Below, piece by piece: positions 5,622-25,103 of a stretch of DNA of 48,247 nucleotides. The translations under genes and the position numbers were made by a program. Location: IMG/VR virus record IMGVR_UViG_3300025853_000149, positions 1-48,247 of that record; one strand, written 5' to 3'. The notes under the pieces are model-generated. The model did not search any database and was not told the origin of the DNA. It saw nothing but the letters and a program-made list of their open reading frames with translations. Source of the DNA: a virus. Numbering within the stretch: position 1 is the stretch's first letter; every line of letters begins with the position of its first letter.

Positions 5622-6185
5622 TCATAGGAAAAATCCTTTCTTTCTCAAAGCTTTCATTTGCTCGTAAGTAACTTTGGGATTAGCTAGAATGACCTTCAAG
5701 GCTTTTTGATAAGCTTCGGCTGCATCTAATTCAAATTCAAAATATCCTAAATGTAATACCTTGCCTTGTACTGTAAGTTGTGACCTCCATTTAGACGTCG
5801 CTTTAGACCAACTAACTCCCGTGTACTCAGAAGAGCCACCTTTTTTATCTTTACTTAAATTGTGCCTACTTGTTATGATTTGTAAATTTTCGAGCCTGTT
5901 ATTATTCTTGTCATTATCGATATGGTCGACTACACTTTTGTGGCCGTTAGGAATGTGATTCAAAAATGCCATCGCCATTAATTGATGAATCAGAAAGCTT
6001 TTCATTTTCCTATATTTATAAAGATTCACTCGAAGATAACCACAATTATTTGTTTGCGGTTTTAAAATCTTTTCTTTAAGCTTCCTACCATCTGAAAGCT
6101 TCCTTTTTAAACTCTTCACTTTTCCTAAGTTGGATATTTGATACAATCCTTCATAGCCTTTTATGTTTCTAAATTCTTCTTTCAT
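5622..6185 (-). CDS. Homing endonuclease: NUMOD4, HNH_3 and AP2 domains (second copy)
   Basis: From ATG 6185 the product is 187 residues. It contains NUMOD4 (IKGYEGLYQISNLGKVKSLKR, residues ~8-28, quoted in part), an HNH_3 core (HQLMAMAFLNHIPNGHKSV then DHIDNDKNNN), and AP2 (YTGVSWSKATSKWRSQLTV). It is clearly paralogous to the enzyme at 2126-2677. The frame is open upstream to 6275, but the extra 30 residues are hydrophobic, not conserved in the paralog, and lie in a region with RNA-like structure, so I chose the internal start. The gene ends at the edge of the late promoter box upstream of the portal gene. Confidence 0.9.
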   Translation of the reverse strand: MKEEFRNIKGYEGLYQISNLGKVKSLKRKLSDGRKLKEKILKPQTNNCGYLRVNLYKYRKMKSFLIHQLMAMAFLNHIPNGHKSVVDHIDNDKNNNRLENLQIITSRHNLSKDKKGGSSEYTGVSWSKATSKWRSQLTVQGKVLHLGYFEFELDAAEAYQKALKVILANPKVTYEQMKALRKKGFFL

Positions 6186-6861: not shown

Positions 6862-6949
6862 ACAAAAAGGGCAGCAACCTTTCGATTACCGCCCCTCAAT
6901 CTCACGAAGGTTCTATGTTATTTATTTAAGTCTTGTTTTGTTACTAATT
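6862..6949 (-). ncRNA. Candidate small RNA of about 88 nt ending in a strong terminator
   Basis: A dyad promoter (6956-6999) should start RNA near 6949. Within about 60 bases there is an intrinsic terminator: a nine-pair stem GGGCGGTAA/TTGCTGCCC (6894-6886 with 6877-6869), an eight-base loop and a T-rich tail. No ATG lies between, so the product would be an untranslated RNA of about 88 nt. The loop (TCGAAAGG) can also pair with an upstream AACCTTCG, giving a pseudoknot or a competing helix. It could instead merely end transcripts from 7232 and above. Confidence 0.5.
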
Positions 6950-6955
6950 ACAATG

Positions 6956-6999
6956 TAAATATAAGAGCTTTGCGCTTAAATCTAATTAAACTAGTTTAA
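6956..6999 (-). promoter_or_regulatory. Dyad-type promoter
   Basis: A perfect 14-base palindrome TTAAACTAGTTTAA (6999-6986) is followed by TTAGATTT and, 22 bases after the palindrome, by TATATTTA (6963-6956), one base off TAnnTTTG. It is near-identical to the promoter at 7258-7301. The only thing downstream is the small RNA candidate. Confidence 0.65.
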
Positions 7000-7061
7000 T
7001 AAGAAATATTTTGCTTGAATTTTCATTTTTGTCTGTTTTTAATTTATTAAGTCTTTACTCA

Positions 7062-7232: not shown

Positions 7233-7257
7233 AATTTTTATTTGTTTAATTATAATT

Positions 7258-7301
7258 CAAATATAAGAGCTTTATAGCAAAATCTAATTAAACTAGTTTA
7301 A
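7258..7301 (-). promoter_or_regulatory. Dyad-type promoter for the 56-aa gene
   Basis: The palindrome TTAAACTAGTTTAA (7301-7288) is followed by TTAGATTT and, after a 22-base spacer, by TATATTTG (7265-7258), a perfect TAnnTTTG -7 box. Transcription would start near 7251, just upstream of the start codon at 7232. The dyad occupies the place of a -33 element. Confidence 0.75.
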
Positions 7302-7310
7302 TAAGAACAT

Positions 7311-8696
7311 CTATTGCGGTAAATAATGATGATGCAGGTAGTGCAAGATATAATCATCACCATCAGAGAAGTGGCCGTACCTTTCAAAACCGTTCTTATC
7401 TTTTGCTTTTAACTTAGCACCATTAGCATTAATCTGAACCTTCTGAAAATCAGCAATAGACAACTCACACTTCTCGTCAATGTTAATGTCATACTTGTAT
7501 GCACCTGATAAAGCCCTGTTAATCAATCTGCGCCTCTCTGAGTGCAACGGATTGGAATTAGGTATTCTTATATCACCCCGGTATAAATAGCCTTTAAACG
7601 ACTCTATAATAGCCATTAGAAACGAACGCTTATCTCTTAACATTGTAGTTCGTTTAGCGTGGACGTCACCGTAGAAGAATAATCCATATTTAAAGTACTC
7701 TTCAAAATCCGATACAACGACATCAATGCAATCCTCAACAGTGTTGGATGGAGACTTCATTGCATACTCCTTTATCTTATTGAGACTTATACGCTTTCCT
7801 GTATCATCTATTTGCCAAACACCAACAGCCATATAAGGATTTGCATTAAAGTCCATTGTCACATGAATAGCTTTTTGTAATACCGGTAACTTCTTTACAT
7901 GGTCAGCCCTTTTAAATCTATTGTAATATTCCAAGCCTGTCTTCACAGAACCCCAGTTTCCACGACCATCCACCTCATACTGCTCTGGGTCGATTCGTTT
8001 TAAGTCATCAAGGTATTCAATCCTGTTCTTAGGACAAAATGGATTGTCATCATAATTAGCTTTAAGCCTTAACGCCCTGTATTTATCAGCATTCTTTTCA
8101 TCGAAGAACTGCTTATATATATCAGTATCAACAGATATAGGATTAAATGTCAGGTCAATAATAGGCTCTATATCATGCCTTGAACGCAATGAACCTTGCA
8201 TATGCACGATATCCTTTACATTGATTTCATGGTGATGCGTGATTGGCTCTTCTAGCCATAACCTTGTTACATCAGCAATTGACATCACCTTTCCGGGGTC
8301 TTCAAAAGAGCCGCCGAACATCTTATTGCCTGTTTCAAGGTGTACAATCTCAAGGCGTGAATCGTAGAATCGAAATGAATCCTTTAAGATAGGTTTCATC
8401 TCGCATACGTCTTTAAATAGTTGGTATTGGCTATTCCTAACAGCTACTTTCGCATACCTCATAAATATGCCTCTGAAATACTGCTCACCGGAACAAAGTA
8501 AAAGGTATTGAATCGCCTTTGTGTATGACTTCGCACTATATCTTGAACCGTACCAGATTTGGAATGGACTCTGATTATTCCATTCAGATAGGAATATATC
8601 AGGCACACCTATGACATTATCCTTCTTTAGATAATCTTGAATCACAGGTGAATTTAAGTTATCACTCGTAACGCCTAATGTGACGATTTTAGTCAC
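7311..8696 (-). CDS. terL: Terminase large subunit
   Basis: The 461-residue protein has the two-domain plan of large terminases. The ATPase domain holds a Walker A-like GSRYSAKS (residues ~50-57) and a Walker B followed by catalytic glutamates (VTRLWLEEPI, ~143-152). The C-terminal RNase-H-like nuclease shows acidic residues in VTMDFNANPY (~279-288), FYGDVHAKR (~341-349) and a late SDGDDY. It cuts and pumps concatemeric DNA into proheads through the portal. It overlaps the small-subunit gene by four bases (ATGA). Confidence 0.93.
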   Translation of the reverse strand: MTKIVTLGVTSDNLNSPVIQDYLKKDNVIGVPDIFLSEWNNQSPFQIWYGSRYSAKSYTKAIQYLLLCSGEQYFRGIFMRYAKVAVRNSQYQLFKDVCEMKPILKDSFRFYDSRLEIVHLETGNKMFGGSFEDPGKVMSIADVTRLWLEEPITHHHEINVKDIVHMQGSLRSRHDIEPIIDLTFNPISVDTDIYKQFFDEKNADKYRALRLKANYDDNPFCPKNRIEYLDDLKRIDPEQYEVDGRGNWGSVKTGLEYYNRFKRADHVKKLPVLQKAIHVTMDFNANPYMAVGVWQIDDTGKRISLNKIKEYAMKSPSNTVEDCIDVVVSDFEEYFKYGLFFYGDVHAKRTTMLRDKRSFLMAIIESFKGYLYRGDIRIPNSNPLHSERRRLINRALSGAYKYDINIDEKCELSIADFQKVQINANGAKLKAKDKNGFERYGHFSDGDDYILHYLHHHYLPQ

Positions 8697-11814: not shown

Positions 11815-12116
11815 GGCCATACTTAAGGTCGGGCAAGAAGAAAGGAAAACAAAAGAACAGGTCAAGGTATCCATATGAGTTTACGCTTGAGCTAGTAGAA
11901 GAGAATGGCAAGTACAAGGAAAAGATAATTGACAATATCAAGAGGATAGATAAGGATTACGAAGATTTAATGCTATTCCTTACTACACATTTGCCATACA
12001 GCAGGATGGATTTAATGCAAATGAATTACCCAACTTTTTTTAGTATGATTCCGAAGGCACAAAAGATAATTAAGGCGCAAAAGAAACAAGAGAAGAAGAG
12101 TAAGAAGAAAAGATAA
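11329..12116 (+). CDS. Tail assembly chaperone, -1 frameshift product (gpGT-like)
   Basis: Slippage at T-TTT-TTA (11769-11775) moves the ribosome back one base. Residues 1-149 of the short form then join 113 residues from the -1 frame (codons from 11775), ending at TAA 12114-12116; total 262 aa. The extension has no ATG near its beginning. It contains a basic KKKGKQK stretch, a helical part (IKRIDKDYEDLMLFL) and a motif MNYPTFFSMIPKAQKI that resembles the T domains of chaperone fusions, ending in a lysine-rich tail. The stop codon lies within the terminal box of the attC-like site beyond. Confidence 0.75.
11769..11834 (+). promoter_or_regulatory. Programmed -1 frameshift site and downstream helix
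   Basis: The heptamer TTTTTTA (11769-11775) fits X-XXY-YYZ in the zero frame. Three bases later GCCCG (11779-11783) can pair with CGGGC (11830-11834), and AAGTAT (11786-11791) with ATACTT (11819-11824), forming an extended stem that could pause ribosomes. The spacer is shorter than usual. Confidence 0.65.
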
Positions 12117-12169
12117 CGATATATAAGAAACCATTAAAACGGTTCTTATATGGGCGTTGTGCGTAATAC
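12111..12169 (-). repeat. attC-like site A (after methyltransferase cassette)
   Basis: Read on the minus strand: GCACAAC, a short unpaired GCCC, ATATAAGAACC, the loop GTTTTAAT, GGTTTCTTATAT (one extra unpaired base in the stem), an unpaired spacer, then GTTATC. This is the R-L-loop-L-R plan of integron attC sites with an extrahelical base. About 40 bp are nearly identical to site D at 20104-20157. The outer boxes do not pair with each other here, because the 3' one is phage DNA at the end of the tail chaperone gene. Confidence 0.7.
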
Positions 12170-12939
12170 TAAAACATCGTTAATTGAGATGTTTCGTCTT
12201 TTATTCTTCTAATTGCTTTTTTATAATATTCTTCATTTAATTCTGCGCCAATAAATCTGCGTTTCGTTTTATGGCAAGAAATGGCTGTACTACCACTTCC
12301 TGAATATCCATCAAATACTAAGTCGTTTTCATTACTAAATGTTATTATTAACTCGTTTAAAAGCCCTACAGGTTTTTGTGTTGGGTGCCATCTGTTTAGT
12401 GGGTTGCATTCATCAGCCTTTCCACTAAACTTAACTAAGTTTGTTGGGTAACTTTTAGTATTGTCATAACCATCTGCGAACTCGCCTTTATGCTCACCGT
12501 AAGTGCTTTTCTTTTTATCCTTTGGGTTTCCCATTGGTCTTATGTTTTGTTTCGGCTTGGGTTTTAATATAGGGTTATAAGTATATTCACCGTTTTTCAC
12601 CCTACTAAACATCACAATATCTTCTGTTTGTTTTAATGGCATTTTGTGAGCATTAAGAAAATTACTTCCTTGCATCTTATCCCAAGTTATTCTATATTTA
12701 AAAAACCCAAGCCTTGACATAATTAAACGGCTCGTAAACGGCTCATCACTAAAAATAAGTATTACACCATCGGGCTTTAAAACTCGTTCCCATTCTTGCC
12801 ATAAAACAGGTAAATCAATATCATATTCCCAATCACATTGCGTTGTATTATATGGCGGGTCTTGCAGAATTAAATCTACACTACCATCGTCAATGCTTTT
12901 TAGCAAATCAAGGCAATCAGTATTTCGTAAATCAATCAT
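12169..12939 (-). CDS. DNA adenine/cytosine-N4 methyltransferase, beta class (256 aa)
   Basis: Motif IV DPPY lies at residues ~27-30 (LILQDPPYNTTQCDW). The SAM-binding motif I lies near the C-terminus (DLVFDGYSGSGSTA, ~212-225), with a HPTQKPVGLL segment (~189-198) just before. This circular order is that of beta-class amino-methyltransferases such as those of type II systems. No restriction endonuclease is adjacent, so it is an orphan enzyme, probably protecting phage DNA from host restriction. It forms a complete cassette between attC-like sites B and A. Confidence 0.92.
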   Translation of the reverse strand: MIDLRNTDCLDLLKSIDDGSVDLILQDPPYNTTQCDWEYDIDLPVLWQEWERVLKPDGVILIFSDEPFTSRLIMSRLGFFKYRITWDKMQGSNFLNAHKMPLKQTEDIVMFSRVKNGEYTYNPILKPKPKQNIRPMGNPKDKKKSTYGEHKGEFADGYDNTKSYPTNLVKFSGKADECNPLNRWHPTQKPVGLLNELIITFSNENDLVFDGYSGSGSTAISCHKTKRRFIGAELNEEYYKKAIRRIKDETSQLTMF

Positions 12940-12957
12940 ATTTCGTCTATTAAATCC

Positions 12958-13023
12958 GTACTACGCACAACAATGTATAAACGGCATTAAAACGACCGTT
13001 TATACTCAACGTTGTATGCAATT
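12958..13023 (-). repeat. attC-like site B
   Basis: On the minus strand GCATACAAC, an unpaired GTTGA, GTATAAACGG, the loop region TCGTTTTAATG, CCGTTTATAC (ten perfect pairs), unpaired ATT and GTTGTGC follow in order. The downstream cassette begins TTGTGCGTAGTAC, which is complementary in 13 of 14 positions (counting the shared G) to the box GTATTACGCACAAC at that same cassette's far end in site A. Confidence 0.75.
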
Positions 13024-13105
13024 ATTGGTTTATGTATATTAGTGTAGTTAAACACTTCATGGCTTCTTGCTTGGCTCTCTCAAGCATTGCGACTTTCTCA
13101 TCCAT
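13022..13105 (-). CDS. Possible small protein (27 aa) within the IbrB/IbrA cassette
   Basis: After the PAPS-reductase-like gene stops at 13149, a short frame runs from ATG 13105 (MDEKVAMLERAKQEAMKCL) to TAA at 13022, which lies at the edge of attC-like site B. It would form a single amphipathic helix of 27 residues. Nothing else in the gap of about 125 bases looks coding. It may equally be chance; expression is not supported by any visible signal. Confidence 0.35.
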   Translation of the reverse strand: MDEKVAMLERAKQEAMKCLTTLIYINQ

Positions 13106-13148
13106 TACATTTATGTGGTTTACTTATTTGAAAACCTATTGCAAAGCC

Positions 13149-14369
13149 TTAGCCGTTAGGTTTAATTTCATTTTCTATTCTCCGTTTTTCTTTGATTTGC
13201 TTATATTTTTCATATGCCTCTGATTTTGGCTGTGTTTGTCCAAGTCCTTTACAATAATAGTCATTTCTCAATATACATCTTGCCATTCTTTTCCAACTTG
13301 GAGCCCAGCATTTAACCTCTAAATCATGAGGTGCAATATCTGGTATTTTATCATATCCTCTTTTTTTCCAGCCTACTATAAATTTAACAAACCTTTCCTT
13401 ATAATGCTTTTGCATTTTTATAGGCAATGACTTTAGTAAATAGTTAGTATATGATTCCCAAGTATGATTTACTGGCTTAGTTACATCATTATATCCGTTA
13501 ATATTTCCTTTTTCCTTTATGTATAATGCCCCACTGTTAACACCACTAACCCTGTTAAGAAGCTTGTACCATGTTTCATTTTCTAAAATATGATAAAGCC
13601 AAAGTCCTTTTTTTTGGTCGTCACCGAACGGTTGACATAATCTTTGATTACTTAATTTAACTCCAGCCATTGTCATCATGTCATATATCTTATTATGAGA
13701 TAAATTTTTGTTTTTAGAATGGAATACCCATATATCCTCAGTTCTCCAATCATATATCGGGTAGACATTGTATAACATATTCGACAATTTTGTAGTCCAT
13801 TTGTAATTATTGAATGTTAAGTTTTTTTTCTCTGAAACAATAGCTCTATATCTATGTAAACTTTCATCAGCCCTTATCCCTATAAATCCAGCTGTTAATT
13901 TATTATTTGCATACCACTTACCGAACAAAACCATAAATTCCTCAAATTCCATTTTTGGAATATAAAAATCATATTGTTCTAAATTTGATGATTCGTTTGG
14001 CTTTTCTCTTACCCAAATATTTTTGTTATTTTCATCCCAACATATCCATTTAGGCTGAAAGTCACTAACTGCATTTCTCAATAACAATTCTCCACAAAAC
14101 CAATGTAAATCTATATGTTCTTTATATTCTTCAACTATTTCTCTTATGTGGTCTATTGTGTGCTTGTATTGAGCCTCTAAGTCTATAATTAATAATCCTA
14201 CCTTTTTCCCCCTTTTAATAGCTTCATTCATAACCAAATGAGTCATTACAGTGCTATCTTTACCACCAGAAAAACTTATGTAATATTTTTCAAATGAATC
14301 AAACACTTTACTTATCCTTTCTTTAGTTGCCTGGAGTACGTTTATGTCTAAATATTTCTTTGTTGCCAT
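13149..14369 (-). CDS. IbrA-like PAPS-reductase-family protein
   Basis: The 406-residue protein contains the PP-loop SGGKDSTVMTHLV (residues ~34-46) of the adenine-nucleotide alpha hydrolase superfamily. The overall plan matches the DUF3440 / IbrA group: WKWTT-like and YDWRTEDIWVF segments (residues ~190-215) and a cysteine pair towards the C-terminus. IbrA with IbrB is known from E. coli as an activator of prophage-encoded eib genes; the biochemical activity is unsettled. It follows the ParB-like gene with a one-base gap and both share one attC-bounded cassette. No free sulfur-assimilation genes are nearby, so an assimilatory role is unlikely. Confidence 0.85.
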   Translation of the reverse strand: MATKKYLDINVLQATKERISKVFDSFEKYYISFSGGKDSTVMTHLVMNEAIKRGKKVGLLIIDLEAQYKHTIDHIREIVEEYKEHIDLHWFCGELLLRNAVSDFQPKWICWDENNKNIWVREKPNESSNLEQYDFYIPKMEFEEFMVLFGKWYANNKLTAGFIGIRADESLHRYRAIVSEKKNLTFNNYKWTTKLSNMLYNVYPIYDWRTEDIWVFHSKNKNLSHNKIYDMMTMAGVKLSNQRLCQPFGDDQKKGLWLYHILENETWYKLLNRVSGVNSGALYIKEKGNINGYNDVTKPVNHTWESYTNYLLKSLPIKMQKHYKERFVKFIVGWKKRGYDKIPDIAPHDLEVKCWAPSWKRMARCILRNDYYCKGLGQTQPKSEAYEKYKQIKEKRRIENEIKPNG

Positions 14370-14370
14370 A

Positions 14371-15528
14371 TTAATAAAGTTCTACTTGTCTGCCAATTAT
14401 AGCAGCTTCATTTATATCTATTTCTTCAATATTATTATTCCTTAACCACTTGTTTAAATATTCTAAAGCTATATTATTACATTCATTTTGAGTATTCTCA
14501 TCTAATTCAAACAATGCTCCTGAATATGATGAGGGTATTCCAGTTTCATAACATACAGCTGCTTTACCAAGCCATGCTATTCTATTCATACTTTTATTTG
14601 TTAAATAGTGTTCACATGAATATTTCCATTCCATTATAACCCTATCAAGAATGCTTGAAAATAGTTCTCCGTCTGACAATATTCGTTTATATTCTAAATA
14701 GCATTCTTCTTTTGTCATTCCTTCTTTCTTGCTTTTATAAAAACCTGCCTTGTGACATTCCCATTTATCGTAAGTATGAAATATTCTGTTAGTATCGCCT
14801 TCATTTGGTATTCTGTATAGGTTTAACTCATCTTCCGTAACATCATCAGATATTTGTTCATAGTCACAAATGCTATCAGAACTTTCCCATGCATTACTGA
14901 AGTCGTTATCAGAAAATAAATGTTCTAACCCTGAAACTTGACAAAGTCTTAATACTTCTTCTTCATCCATTCCTAGCTGTTTTGCTATGCGTTTGTTGGT
15001 CCAATTTCTGTTTTTTAATTCAATAACTATTTCACTCATAGCATCAACTTGATGTTTTCCTCTTGCTCTGTTGTGCCTTATGGTTGAGGCAATTCTGTCA
15101 TTTTTCCCAGACTGTTCTTTTCGAATATCTACAATTGGCAAGTATCCCATCACTCTTTGATTTACAACCTTAGACTCTTTGCCTACTCTATTCCTATGAA
15201 ACCCATCAATCACTTCGATTTTTTCTTTTTCTGGATTATCCCACGTAACAATAGGTTGAGTATATCCGTCATTCATTATTGAGACTTCTAAAAGTTCCAT
15301 TTCAGGTGGTGCGACTTTGTTAGGGTTGTAATCATTTGCAACAACATTTTTATTTACTACCCATTTTACAAAATCAACAGGTTCATTTTTAAAAGGAGAC
15401 TCATTATGTATAGCCTCTCGTATTTCATTTATACTATTAATTTTATCTGCAAAATCTAACTTACTCAGATAGTCCTTAATTTCATTTATTAATTTGTTTT
15501 TTTCAAAACCATTTTTGCCATCACACAT
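14371..15528 (-). CDS. IbrB-like ParB/sulfiredoxin-domain protein
   Basis: The 385-residue protein has a ParB N-terminal-like domain at ~55-160, with VIDGFHRNRVG (~105-115) and the arginine/histidine-rich TIRHNRARGKHQ (~145-156), followed by a helix-turn-helix (WTNKRIAKQLGMDEEEVLRL, ~176-195). This matches IbrB, the constant partner of IbrA. ParB-type domains can bind CTP or act on nucleotides, which might serve the partner PP-loop enzyme. The C-terminal half is unrecognised. It is the first gene of the cassette that ends at site B. Confidence 0.85.
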   Translation of the reverse strand: MCDGKNGFEKNKLINEIKDYLSKLDFADKINSINEIREAIHNESPFKNEPVDFVKWVVNKNVVANDYNPNKVAPPEMELLEVSIMNDGYTQPIVTWDNPEKEKIEVIDGFHRNRVGKESKVVNQRVMGYLPIVDIRKEQSGKNDRIASTIRHNRARGKHQVDAMSEIVIELKNRNWTNKRIAKQLGMDEEEVLRLCQVSGLEHLFSDNDFSNAWESSDSICDYEQISDDVTEDELNLYRIPNEGDTNRIFHTYDKWECHKAGFYKSKKEGMTKEECYLEYKRILSDGELFSSILDRVIMEWKYSCEHYLTNKSMNRIAWLGKAAVCYETGIPSSYSGALFELDENTQNECNNIALEYLNKWLRNNNIEEIDINEAAIIGRQVELY

Positions 15529-15587
15529 TTTTAAATATTTTTACGTTAGTACATTTAATCATCATTCGTTGTATAAGTCGCCATACA

Positions 15588-15645
15588 GCACACAACACGT
15601 GGTAAAAACCATTAAAGCGCACCATACACTCCTCCGTTAGCCGCC
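15588..15645 (-). repeat. attC-like site C (degenerate)
   Basis: On the minus strand the box GGCTAAC, a central GCTTTAATG loop like that of the other sites, a short TGGT/ACCA stem and the box GTTGTGTGC follow in order. The beginning of the downstream cassette, GTTGTGTGC, pairs in 8 of 9 positions with the box GCATACAAC at its far end in site B. The stem is much weaker than in A, B, D and F. Confidence 0.5.
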
Positions 15646-15647
15646 TT

Positions 15648-15830
15648 TTATACAGGTAGCTTATACTTACTTTCCTCTACAGGCTTATCAAGTTCTGAGA
15701 TAACATCATCTAATTCAGAAGTCAGACTTTCATCATCTAATCTCATCTTAATTGATTTTAAAATAGAAAGACAGACGCCTCTCCTGTATGCTAAATTATA
15801 AATCTTTTTTTCTAATTCAAGATTGCTCAT
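15648..15830 (-). CDS. Hypothetical protein (60 aa)
   Basis: A 60-residue protein, mostly helical and acidic (MSNLELEKKIYNLAYRRG at the start), with no known motif. It overlaps the upstream gene by 14 bases and its stop lies three bases from attC-like site C. It is therefore the last native gene before the cassette array begins. Confidence 0.65.
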   Translation of the reverse strand: MSNLELEKKIYNLAYRRGVCLSILKSIKMRLDDESLTSELDDVISELDKPVEESKYKLPV

Positions 15831-19636: not shown

Positions 19637-19936
19637 TTATTTTGTGAATTTATTAAAATAATCTTCCCTTCTTTTCACGCAAGAAGCAACATAAGCATCA
19701 ACCTTATGTCTTGGTAATGACTTCGCAAAACGCCTCTGTTCATTACTCAACCTAAACTGATGATCAAGCCATTCGCAATACCTTTCCTTATAAAGCTGCC
19801 TGTAATAGACTTCATTTTTAATAGCATCTTCATCGACAATCAATCCTAGTTTAGATTTTAGATTTGTTGCTAACTCCTTGAATCCTTCCGGGTTTGTATC
19901 TCGGAGCCTTATTTGTTTTTCTTTAATTCCAATCAT
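19637..19936 (-). CDS. Hypothetical protein (99 aa)
   Basis: A basic 99-residue helical protein (MIGIKEKQIRLRDTNPEGF at the start, FNKFTK at the end). It contains an RRFAKSLPRHKVDAYVASC stretch and two isolated cysteines. No family recognised. The strong basic charge suggests nucleic acid contact. The gene stands between the zinc-ribbon gene and the promoter-leader of the annealase operon. Confidence 0.7.
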   Translation of the reverse strand: MIGIKEKQIRLRDTNPEGFKELATNLKSKLGLIVDEDAIKNEVYYRQLYKERYCEWLDHQFRLSNEQRRFAKSLPRHKVDAYVASCVKRREDYFNKFTK

Positions 19937-19981
19937 GTTAAAAAAGGGATTTTTGTTTATGGTTTATTTTTTTTTAATTTA

Positions 19982-20086
19982 TCAAAAAGGCAGCTCATCA
20001 GAAACTTCTTCCACATCAGAGCTTCCACACCATAGGCAGAATATAGATTCAACAAAAAGCCGGTTACATTTATTGCATTCTCTCAT
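19982..20086 (-). CDS. Tiny zinc-ribbon protein (34 aa)
   Basis: The frame from ATG 20086 encodes 34 residues with two CxxC pairs (CNKC at 4-7 and CLWC at 17-20), spaced for one zinc ion, and an acidic C-terminus ending SDELPF. The tail resembles SSB acidic tips (ELPF versus DLPF), so it might compete for or use the same partners. It lies directly beyond attC-like site D, in the native phage part. Confidence 0.68.
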   Translation of the reverse strand: MRECNKCNRLFVESIFCLWCGSSDVEEVSDELPF

Positions 20087-20103
20087 ATTTATGATGTTAT
20101 TAT

Positions 20104-20157
20104 TAACAATATATAAGAAACCATTAAAACGGTTCTTATATGGGCGTTAGTGGCAAT
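20104..20157 (-). repeat. attC-like site D (after second methyltransferase cassette)
   Basis: On the minus strand: ATTGCCACTAAC, an unpaired GCCC, ATATAAGAACC, the loop GTTTTAAT, GGTTTCTTATAT, unpaired ATT and GTTAATA. The stem, the extra base and the loop are identical to site A, 8 kb away. The stop codon TAA of the methyltransferase (20149-20147) is part of the first box, as is common in integron cassettes. Confidence 0.7.
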
Positions 20158-20815
20158 GCTGTGAAATCCTCCGAACAGCAATGTCGTAATAATTTTCATC
20201 CTTCTCAATCCCTATAAAAGAACGATTTAGATTTACACAAGCCAACCCTGTGCTACCTACTCCCATAAAAGGGTCTATCACTACACCTGTGGTCTTATTC
20301 ACACAAAATTCCATTAGTTGTATTGGTTTTTCAGTTGGGTGTTCTTTTGGAAAAATTCGTTTGTTGAAATAAGCATCAATTCTACTCATTCTAAAAACTC
20401 TGCATCCACGCTTTTTTAATTTACTCCAGGCCATTTCCGCATCACTACCTCTATTGTCTTGCAGTTTATCCCAAATCATCCAACTATCTGTTGGTGGTAA
20501 ATTATAAAAGTTTCCACCCCACATTATTATTTGGTCTTTTTGTGTTGTCAAATTTTCAACAAACGAATTTAGTTTTTCATCCCAACTGTTTTCTGCGTGG
20601 AATTTTGTTTTCCCGTTGTTTCCGTGCCAACCCCTTTTAAGTTCTTTTTTCAATCCGTAAGGTGGGTCTGTGATTATAGCATCAAAATCTAAATCGTTCT
20701 TTGCCATCACACTTTGAGAATCGCCATTAATAAGTAAGTAGAAAGCACTGCCACTAACACTGCGTATAAGCAATGGCGGTTTTAGTGCATCTATGATAGT
20801 TATTTCGTTATTCAT
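20147..20815 (-). CDS. DNA methyltransferase, beta class (222 aa)
   Basis: DPPYGLK (motif IV) lies at residues ~50-56 (AIITDPPYGLKKEL) and the SAM-binding motif I near the C-terminus (VVIDPFMGVGSTGLA, ~178-192), preceded by EHPTEKPIQLMEF (~159-171). The size suits a compact orphan N4-cytosine or N6-adenine enzyme. It is unrelated at the sequence level to the enzyme at 12169 outside the motifs. It probably modifies phage DNA against restriction. It ends inside attC-like site D. Confidence 0.92.
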   Translation of the reverse strand: MNNEITIIDALKPPLLIRSVSGSAFYLLINGDSQSVMAKNDLDFDAIITDPPYGLKKELKRGWHGNNGKTKFHAENSWDEKLNSFVENLTTQKDQIIMWGGNFYNLPPTDSWMIWDKLQDNRGSDAEMAWSKLKKRGCRVFRMSRIDAYFNKRIFPKEHPTEKPIQLMEFCVNKTTGVVIDPFMGVGSTGLACVNLNRSFIGIEKDENYYDIAVRRISQHCH

Positions 20816-20847
20816 ACTTTCGTTCTTTTAATTAAGTTTCTGCGGGT

Positions 20848-20884
20848 AATTCGCCACTGCTCATACGCTTTTCCGTTATAGGTA
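20848..20884 (-). repeat. attC-like site E (degenerate)
   Basis: The box TACCTATAAC (20884-20875) ends the HNH cassette. Some 16 bases further AGTGGCGAATT matches the start expected for the methyltransferase cassette (AGTGGCAAT, complement of its end box in site D) with one inserted base. The central hairpin is lost or shortened. Confidence 0.45.
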
Positions 20885-21328
20885 ATCATCTACAAAACCT
20901 TTCATCTCTTTTATTGTAGCATCTCTCCTACCTGTATTAGCAAAAACCGTAGTCAAAACAACGTTCCCTATTTCGTAACCTTTACTATTATCTAGCCTAT
21001 CTAAACTTGGTTTTCGTAATTTATCTTTCATTGTAAAATCTATAGGTATATTTAACCAATAACACATTCCTTTTTGCTCTTTTTTCAAACTTTCCAAAAA
21101 CGCACCGTTTATACCTTTATCTCTACTCAAACATTTTCTTTCACGACCATCTGACATAACTCTTTTACTTTCCCTGCTTGTCAATGTACTCATAAGTCTA
21201 TATTTCCAATTAGAATTATAGCAGACTTTACATTGGCTTTTATATCTTTGGCTACCATCACTTTTAAAACCTGTTTTACAAAACTCCGATAATGGCTTTA
21301 CTTCCCCACATTTTATACATTTTCTCAT
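20876..21328 (-). CDS. HNH-like nuclease with N-terminal zinc ribbon
   Basis: The 150-residue protein starts with CIKCGEVKPLSEFCKTGF and a second CKVC pair (residues ~4-36), a zinc ribbon common before phage HNH domains. A later segment SLDRLDNSKGYEIGNVVLT (~108-126), then NTGRRD, follows the HNH pattern, although the first histidine position is R. It may nick or bind DNA. It forms a whole attC-bounded cassette: its stop codon is inside box E, and its leader begins with the exact complement of that box. Confidence 0.72.
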   Translation of the reverse strand: MRKCIKCGEVKPLSEFCKTGFKSDGSQRYKSQCKVCYNSNWKYRLMSTLTSRESKRVMSDGRERKCLSRDKGINGAFLESLKKEQKGMCYWLNIPIDFTMKDKLRKPSLDRLDNSKGYEIGNVVLTTVFANTGRRDATIKEMKGFVDDYL

Positions 21329-21344
21329 AAATCAAATAATTAAA

Positions 21345-21402
21345 TACCTATAACACTATTTAAACCACATTAAAACGTGGTTTACATTCAACGTTATGTT
21401 TC
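21345..21402 (-). repeat. attC-like site F
   Basis: On the minus strand: ACATAAC, unpaired GTTGAATG, TAAACCAC, the loop GTTTTAAT, GTGGTTTA (eight perfect pairs), a short spacer and GTTATAGGTA. The last box is the exact complement of TACCTATAAC in site E, the other end of the HNH cassette. Confidence 0.75.
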
Positions 21403-21619
21403 ATTTTTTTTGGGCGTAAAGCCATTCATCAAATTCAACAATATCACTTTCGCCCCATTTTTTCGTAACCTCTTCTAAAAACGAAAGCCTAACATTTTGT
21501 AAATGCAAATTATTGGCTTGCATTAGTCTAAACATTGAGGCTTGCAGCTCTTTTATCTGTTCCTGTAAAGGTTCTATTCGTTTTTGAACATATTGTTCAA
21601 CATTCGGGTCTTGTATCAT
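21401..21619 (-). CDS. Hypothetical coiled-coil protein (72 aa)
   Basis: A 72-residue protein with a central amphipathic helix (IEPLQEQIKELQASMFRLMQ) that should form a coiled coil, and an acidic end (VEFDEWLYAQKK). The gene starts two bases after the primase-helicase gene ends, and its stop overlaps the outer edge of attC-like site F. The upstream side shows no cassette start, so it is probably native phage sequence at the array border. Confidence 0.68.
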   Translation of the reverse strand: MIQDPNVEQYVQKRIEPLQEQIKELQASMFRLMQANNLHLQNVRLSFLEEVTKKWGESDIVEFDEWLYAQKK

Positions 21620-24853: not shown

Positions 24854-25015
24854 TCAGTTTTTGCAGATTTTGAAATACATTTTGTTATCAAGTTCCTCAA
24901 AGAAGTCATCTAAATCCTCTTCAAGGAACAGTAATTGGTCATACATATTCTTGTCTACGACCATAGTCTCCATCTCTTCCAAGATGGAGATGAGTCTTTC
25001 TAATTTTTCTTTCAT
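24854..25015 (-). CDS. Small acidic helical protein (53 aa)
   Basis: From ATG 25015 the product is 53 residues, nearly all helical and acidic (MKEKLERLISILEEMETMVV, then EEDLDDFFEELDNKM). The start lies about 15 bases after the expected RNA start from the promoter at 25037-25080. A TTG further upstream (25039) would fall inside the -7 box and is rejected. Acidic helical proteins expressed first in phage operons are often DNA mimics or inhibitors of host factors, which is only a suggestion here. Confidence 0.72.
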   Translation of the reverse strand: MKEKLERLISILEEMETMVVDKNMYDQLLFLEEDLDDFFEELDNKMYFKICKN

Positions 25016-25036
25016 ATTTTTATTTAAATAATGATT

Positions 25037-25080
25037 CAAATATATATCACATATATTTAAATCTAGTTAAACAAGTTTAA
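25037..25080 (-). promoter_or_regulatory. Dyad-type promoter for the early operon
   Basis: TTAAACAAGTTTAA (25080-25067; TTAAACTTGTTTAA as read on minus) is followed by CTAGATTT and, exactly 22 bases after the dyad, by TATATTTG (25044-25037), a perfect -7 box. The operon encodes the small acidic and winged-helix proteins. Confidence 0.75.
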
Positions 25081-25103
25081 TAAGAGCAAGTATCATTCGG
25101 GCA

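Follow-up and report, generated by a model that had tools for sequence, protein, structure and literature searches.

Two consecutive minus-strand gene segments in a viral record of 48,247 bases (the whole stretch analysed, called the window here) are flanked by hairpins that resemble the attC sites of integrons, which raises the question of whether the segments are mobile gene cassettes and, if so, what moves them. A sequence-only reading of the record had proposed that they are integron-type cassettes inserted at G/TT sites in a phage without an integrase. The three hairpins, A, B and C, are indeed found at the places that it gave, in an array at 12111-15650 (array 1). The parts of this array, with the hairpins assigned to cassettes according to the evidence discussed below, are as follows.

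12111-12169, + strand: site A, an attC-type receptor hairpin; R'' AGATAAC ends at 12117, hairpin at 12118-12155, crossover G^TT at 12156
12157-13011, + strand: cassette 1, a methyltransferase gene in antisense plus hairpin B, from TT at 12157 to G at 13011
12169-12939, - strand: DNA methyltransferase of cassette 1; PF01555, N6_N4_Mtase (3.4e-34)
12965-13024, + strand: site B, an attC-type hairpin with the core AAACGGCATTAAAACGACCGTTT; its pattern occurs in 55 viral stretches and in Polaribacter phage P12002L
13012-15636, + strand: cassette 2, IbrA-like and ParB-like genes in antisense plus hairpin C; ends GTTGTATGCAA / GTTGTGTGCTG
13149-14369, - strand: IbrA-like protein of cassette 2; PAPS reductase domain and DUF3440
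14371-15528, - strand: IbrB-like ParB-family protein of cassette 2; phrog_2159 (3e-66)
15590-15649, + strand: site C, a weaker attC-type site; R'' ACACAAC, R' GTTAGCC

The two ends of each cassette pair with one another, as had been claimed. In cassette 1, GTTGTGCGTAATAC (at 12156) matches the reverse complement of R'', GTTGTGCGTAGTAC (ending at 12971), at 13 of 14 positions, the exception being A/G at position 11, and in cassette 2 the match of GTTGTATGC with GTTGTGTGC extends over 8 of 9. The boxes of site A itself (AGATAAC and GTTGTGC), described earlier as unpaired, do mismatch, although their AAC and GTT still pair; this R'' lies at the 3' end of sequence that runs out of the upstream plus-strand genes. 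The common hairpin layout that had been read holds in part: hairpins A and B have the same loop, GTTTTAAT, and C has GCTTTAAT; the extra base is clear in A, as well as in hairpin D of the second array, and absent from B. Site C is a weak hairpin that folds poorly. A search of Rfam gave no match.

A scan for the anatomy of array 1 uncovered a second array at 20104-21393, overlooked in the earlier reading, with a second methyltransferase gene and an HNH-like gene.

20094-20159, + strand: site D, a second copy of receptor hairpin A, which opens array 2; sites 20107/20146, crossover at 20146
20147-20875, + strand: cassette 3, the second methyltransferase gene in antisense plus a 116-nt hairpin at 20759-20874 (long site 20758/20875)
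20147-20815, - strand: second DNA methyltransferase (MTase2); PF01555 (6.3e-23)
20876-21393, + strand: cassette 4, the gene of a 150-aa protein in antisense plus hairpin E
20876-21328, - strand: 150-aa protein of cassette 4; HNH-like by eye
21345-21406, + strand: site E, an attC-type hairpin, the final site of array 2; sites 21354/21393

Hairpin D is 98% identical to hairpin A over 45 nt. The ends of cassette 3 (20146-20758) pair at 13 of 14 positions, with A/G at position 11, and those of cassette 4 (20875-21354) at 10/10 positions and 12/14 overall. The 150-aa protein found no match in Pfam, NCBIfam or PADLOC. In many cassette genes the R' box itself supplies the TAA stop codon (G|TTA, read on the opposite strand), for example at 20147 and 20876 in the window and at 1649, 2433 and 5426 in contig L044.

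The window contains two end pairs that combine 10/10 identity with A/G at position 11 and with a tail match of at least 2/3, whereas dinucleotide shuffles yield 0.07 of them each. In an attC-like scan that had been trained on integrons, and whose scores single shuffles can match at one place, five of the six sites (A, B, D, 20758-20875 and E) rank within the top seven plus-strand candidates of the 48 kb. A PWM built from 87 integron attC sites at 14 loci, which called 79/87 controls correctly when one locus was left out at a time, assigned the plus strand as top strand to every correctly placed window site (site D left out), to 3/3 sites of the related contig L002 and to 29/32 sites of the Flavobacterium phages considered below. 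By the PWM and the scan, then, flank sequences and strand polarity are like those of known attC sites, and the terminal boxes, R'' ending in AAC and R' starting with GTT, pair across the two ends of one cassette. A home-made covariance model (R1; 27 integron attC sites from Pseudomonadota) missed the phage sites and likewise missed integron controls. The window contains no PF00589 domain anywhere, and both A-B-C and D-20875-E have the composition of a CALIN, with at least two nearby attC sites and no integrase, attC status being assigned by anatomy. A complete integron, with intI and attI in cis, is not present: the window lacks IntI, and related records hold none above the cut-off.

Four IMG/VR contigs derive from this phage or from a close relative of it, two of them being essentially identical across the stretch compared. 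Contig L002 is 98.7% identical to the window in the left flank and 88% in the right flank, and all of its sequence corresponding to 12176-15655 differs. It carries, behind the same hairpin A, cassettes with a helicase-methyltransferase and a small gene, the ends of which are pairable; contig L007 equals L002 exactly over their common 3.7 kb. Comparison with related phages, which had been suggested as a check, therefore shows this place occupied by other genes in a close relative, and since other cassettes stand between the same flanks and behind the same hairpin A, the locus is a cassette site and hairpin A is its fixed part. In the window's own phage, G^TT exchange is seen through L002 as replacement only. 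When positions 1-56 of L007 are compared with 19927-20148 of the window, hairpin D nearly abuts window 19927, and L007 lacks about 170 bp that the window has. The hairpin A pattern had 0 matches among 84,980 bacterial and archaeal genomes, a genome scan with the methyltransferase returned a single Sphingobium as sole relative, and the plasmid collection matched neither the cassette region nor contig L015. Judging from its relatives, the window phage probably infects Bacteroidota.

Movement of single units can be read from related lytic phages. Next to a 67% relative of the methyltransferase lies a hairpin with matches in 37 records from lytic Flavobacterium 'Moomin' phages, in which a minus-strand, methyltransferase-rich region is a tandem cassette array of the same architecture as in the window. 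Lillamy9-1 is converted into lillamy9-3 if a single G^TT unit of 439 bp at 5637 is placed at 2037: after the shift there are 0 mismatches past position 2037 (over the next ~4.4 kb; 6.5 kb compared), against 2872 when the unit is left in place, and lillamy9-7 has the same rearranged order as lillamy9-3. Exact losses occur as well, of 506 bp of mumin6-1 in mumin6-4 and of 342 bp of snork6-1 in snork6-2. All relocation and loss junctions are G^TT and the empty sites are restored exactly, as expected of the mobile cassettes with G/TT junctions that had been proposed. Seven Moomin phages have the same 59 nt ahead of the first G^TT despite different first cassettes, and it is at this fixed first position that the relocated unit and several of the other differing units lie, so that, on sequence comparison, the first array position appears to behave like attI. 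Comparison of genomes thus demonstrates cassette mobility in the related phages, and not in the window phage.

The Moomin arrays can also be set beside published plating data. According to Nilsson et al. (2020; PMC7077304), the LMO9 phages that plate 3-4 logs lower on LMO6 lack a specific methyltransferase, and lillamy9-1 and morran9-1 are the phages in which this defect was studied. In the loci read, both lack the gp013-type methyltransferase cassette, which is present in mumin6, mymlan6 and snork6; its absence coincides with poor plating on LMO6, which is a correlation.

The exact relocations and losses also define the unit, which on the top strand has the structure TT-R'...gene reversed...R''-hairpin-G, with genes antisense to the attC top strand. 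In relocated Moomin units the hairpin lies on the 5' side of the gene. The start codon falls inside the hairpin in 6 of 21 Moomin CDS and in MTase2 of the window (start at 20815, hairpin of its own cassette at 20759-20874), and contigs L015, L019 and L020 carry a lone methyltransferase cassette with the sole hairpin at the gene's 5' side. These observations, the constancy of hairpin A in L002 and the PWM agree in inverting the original assignment, in which genes ran in the sense direction and hairpin A closed the methyltransferase cassette: hairpin B goes with the methyltransferase and hairpin C with the Ibr genes, and A serves as a fixed receptor. The gene-sense orientation is excluded on five grounds, including the relocations and the constant hairpin A. 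In three Moomin phages, all scored CDS (21/21) are contained in single cassettes and run antisense to the attC top strand. A gene in sense to the top strand is usual in integrons, and the phage cassettes depart from this throughout, being antisense in 20/20, 39/39 and 21/21 cases; a crude count of integron candidates gave 156 sense to 62 antisense, sense orientation thus being usual and not obligatory.

The paired ends follow a strict pattern: matches are almost invariable at positions 1-9 and are also present at 12-14, position 10 either pairs or has A/T, and at position 11 an A in R' corresponds to a G in the reverse complement of R'', which gives a G.T wobble on the bottom strand. Hairpin patterns in viral contigs located 55 stretches of the site B family and 65 of a second family, which added 23 and 39 end-paired cassettes, respectively. 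In the second family, all cassettes with a partner have A/G at position 11 (39/39) and all are antisense (39/39). In the site B family, position 11 is A/G in 15 of 23, A/T in 6 and A/A in 2, and 20/20 scored ORFs are antisense, which makes 59/59 for both families together. As controls, 540 trials with a random AAC yielded a partner of this kind 28 times (site B family), and A/G at position 11 occurs in 6 of 218 candidate pairs from integrons. Among 398 Pseudomonadota genomes, including 72 with an integron integrase, none contains the site B hairpin core. The one sense-oriented cassette encountered, gp24 of P12002L (L032 14622-15197), has the same end signature.

Regarding cargo, a methyltransferase-type motif is present in 15/20 ORFs of the site B set, in which the Pfam families N6_N4, C5, MT-A70 and Dam were identified, plus PAPS reductase, and a PPY-type motif in 11/39 of the second family. 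Methyltransferases and HNH genes are the only genes widely common among cassette phages, with no common recombinase. The picture of an otherwise ordinary phage with anti-restriction-type cargo and no integrase is supported.

What moves the cassettes is less apparent from the records. Tyrosine recombinases are absent from the window, L002's contig, mumin6-1, lillamy9-1, P12002L and the L015 and L019 contigs. They occur in 6/35 hairpin-bearing contigs, where none reaches the integron-integrase cut-off of 265 bits, and no integron integrase above this cut-off was found in any cassette-bearing viral record searched. The contigs G004, G406 and G430 contain frames of 269-282 aa for tyrosine recombinases that score ~99 bits against the integron-integrase model. 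Neither a Y1 transposase nor a serine recombinase occurs in 25 records, so the Y1 transposase TnpA of an IS200/IS605 element is missing within them, though its supply in trans is possible. The enzyme must act in trans or escape recognition. Integrons are very rare among complete Bacteroidetes genomes (IntegronFinder 2.0; PMC9024848).

On balance, both arrays are probably integron-type mobile gene cassettes without an integrase, in a phage of probably Bacteroidota hosts. This explanation draws on the anatomy, the conserved polarity, the end pairing, the allelic replacement in a near-identical phage and the exact excision and relocation seen among lytic isolates related to it. In a circular cassette, R''-hairpin-R' would form a folded attC-type site; insertion and excision would take place at G^TT, and hairpins A and D would hold the first, attI-like receptor position in the window phage. 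An integron-type tyrosine recombinase, supplied in trans by the host, by an element that infects the same cell or by a gene not recognised as such, may act on the folded bottom strand, which the G.T wobble at position 11 may help to mark. The cargo, mainly DNA methyltransferases, would protect phage DNA from host restriction. Counting against the integron reading are the antisense genes, the weak hairpin of site C, the failure to find a recombinase and the paucity of integrons in Bacteroidetes. More tentatively, Bacteroidota phages might possess a cassette-exchange system of their own, with attC-like sites of reverse polarity, wobble-marked 14-nt ends, a phage-borne receptor, a non-classical recombinase and a communal pool of anti-restriction genes.

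The cassettes could also be mobile without being of integron type, if another recombinase (a host Xer-like tyrosine recombinase, an HUH enzyme or other) acts on hairpins convergent with or related to attC. Such an enzyme would suit the systematic reversed polarity (59/59 scored ORFs and 21/21 Moomin CDS), the fixed wobble in the 14-nt ends, which the integron pairs rarely have, and the lack of IntI above cut-off in the cassette-bearing records searched. The G^TT crossover, the R''/R' boxes, the flanks and the polarity are, however, like those of integron attC sites, and the 25 records yielded neither of the other recombinase types sought. Moreover, in Qi et al. (2023; PMC9892861), where a CALIN of P12002L with two methyltransferases was tested, one of two attC sites (attC2) recombined with attI1 via IntI1. 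We therefore regard this alternative as unlikely.

Ordinary mosaicism, by homologous or illegitimate recombination of co-infecting phages at short repeats with the hairpins as passive bystanders, is far less probable. The near-identical hairpins A and D could act as homology and phage sequence flanks the swap in L002, but the relocation junctions have only about 6-7 bp in common (CGTTAT / GTTATAA), the unit boundaries fall precisely on G^TT and their ends pair, empty sites are restored exactly upon excision, and end pairing with a fixed mismatch calls for a structural reason. From their place at gene boundaries and the start codons within some of them, the hairpins might pass for transcription terminators, or for the mRNA leaders of accessory genes. 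This reading is discarded with near certainty, since paired cassette ends, G^TT junctions and precise loss would go unexplained, relocation contradicts it, and the hairpins are tied to cassettes and do not simply follow arbitrary genes.

As integron-type cassettes, the units share with their counterparts in integrons the R''/R' boxes, the G^TT crossover, an imperfect inner stem, a mostly single-gene content and the receptor behaviour of the first position; they differ in their antisense genes, 14-nt ends with a fixed wobble, lack of intI and hairpins of 38-39 nt (A, B, D and E). The suggestion that such a route is little described is partly outdated, as phage CALINs with methyltransferases have been published (Qi et al., 2023; PMC9892861). 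P12002L resembles the window phage in its attC-type sites without an integrase, its methyltransferase cargo and its being a virulent Bacteroidota phage, and 'divergent directions' of attC were noted in it; the available part of that paper mentions neither a signature at the cassette ends, nor a systematic antisense polarity, nor relocation. Its 23-nt hairpin core identical to that of site B lies between two methyltransferase genes, and this site may be one of those tested with IntI1. Relative to phage CALINs, the reversed gene polarity and the strict end signature are new.

The variable region of the Moomin phages, which has the cassette anatomy and methyltransferase cargo of the window, is recognised here as cassette arrays, and a culturable phage collection can be reinterpreted accordingly; the available text of Nilsson et al. 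(2020; PMC7077304) contains no mention of gene cassettes, insertion or deletion. Orphan DNA methyltransferases of phages belong to the same types (N6_N4, C5, MT-A70 and Dam) and are likewise expected to protect against restriction, whereas those described here travel as site-specific cassettes. This suggests that lytic phages have a precise and reusable means of acquiring, losing and rearranging anti-restriction genes one at a time, and the near-isogenic isolates with cassette differences, together with the published methyltransferase-linked plating differences, make it directly testable. Complete Bacteroidetes genomes are reported to be nearly free of integrons, yet phages that are theirs, or probably so, are rich in cassettes, and the question is which enzyme moves them.

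Outside the arrays, the window contains dispersed repeats of ~78 bp that are 76-82% identical (6937-7014, 7241-7317 and 25010-25088). Two HNH-like genes, at 2126-2677 and 5622-6185, have relatives with 49-51% identity in Polaribacter phage P12002L.
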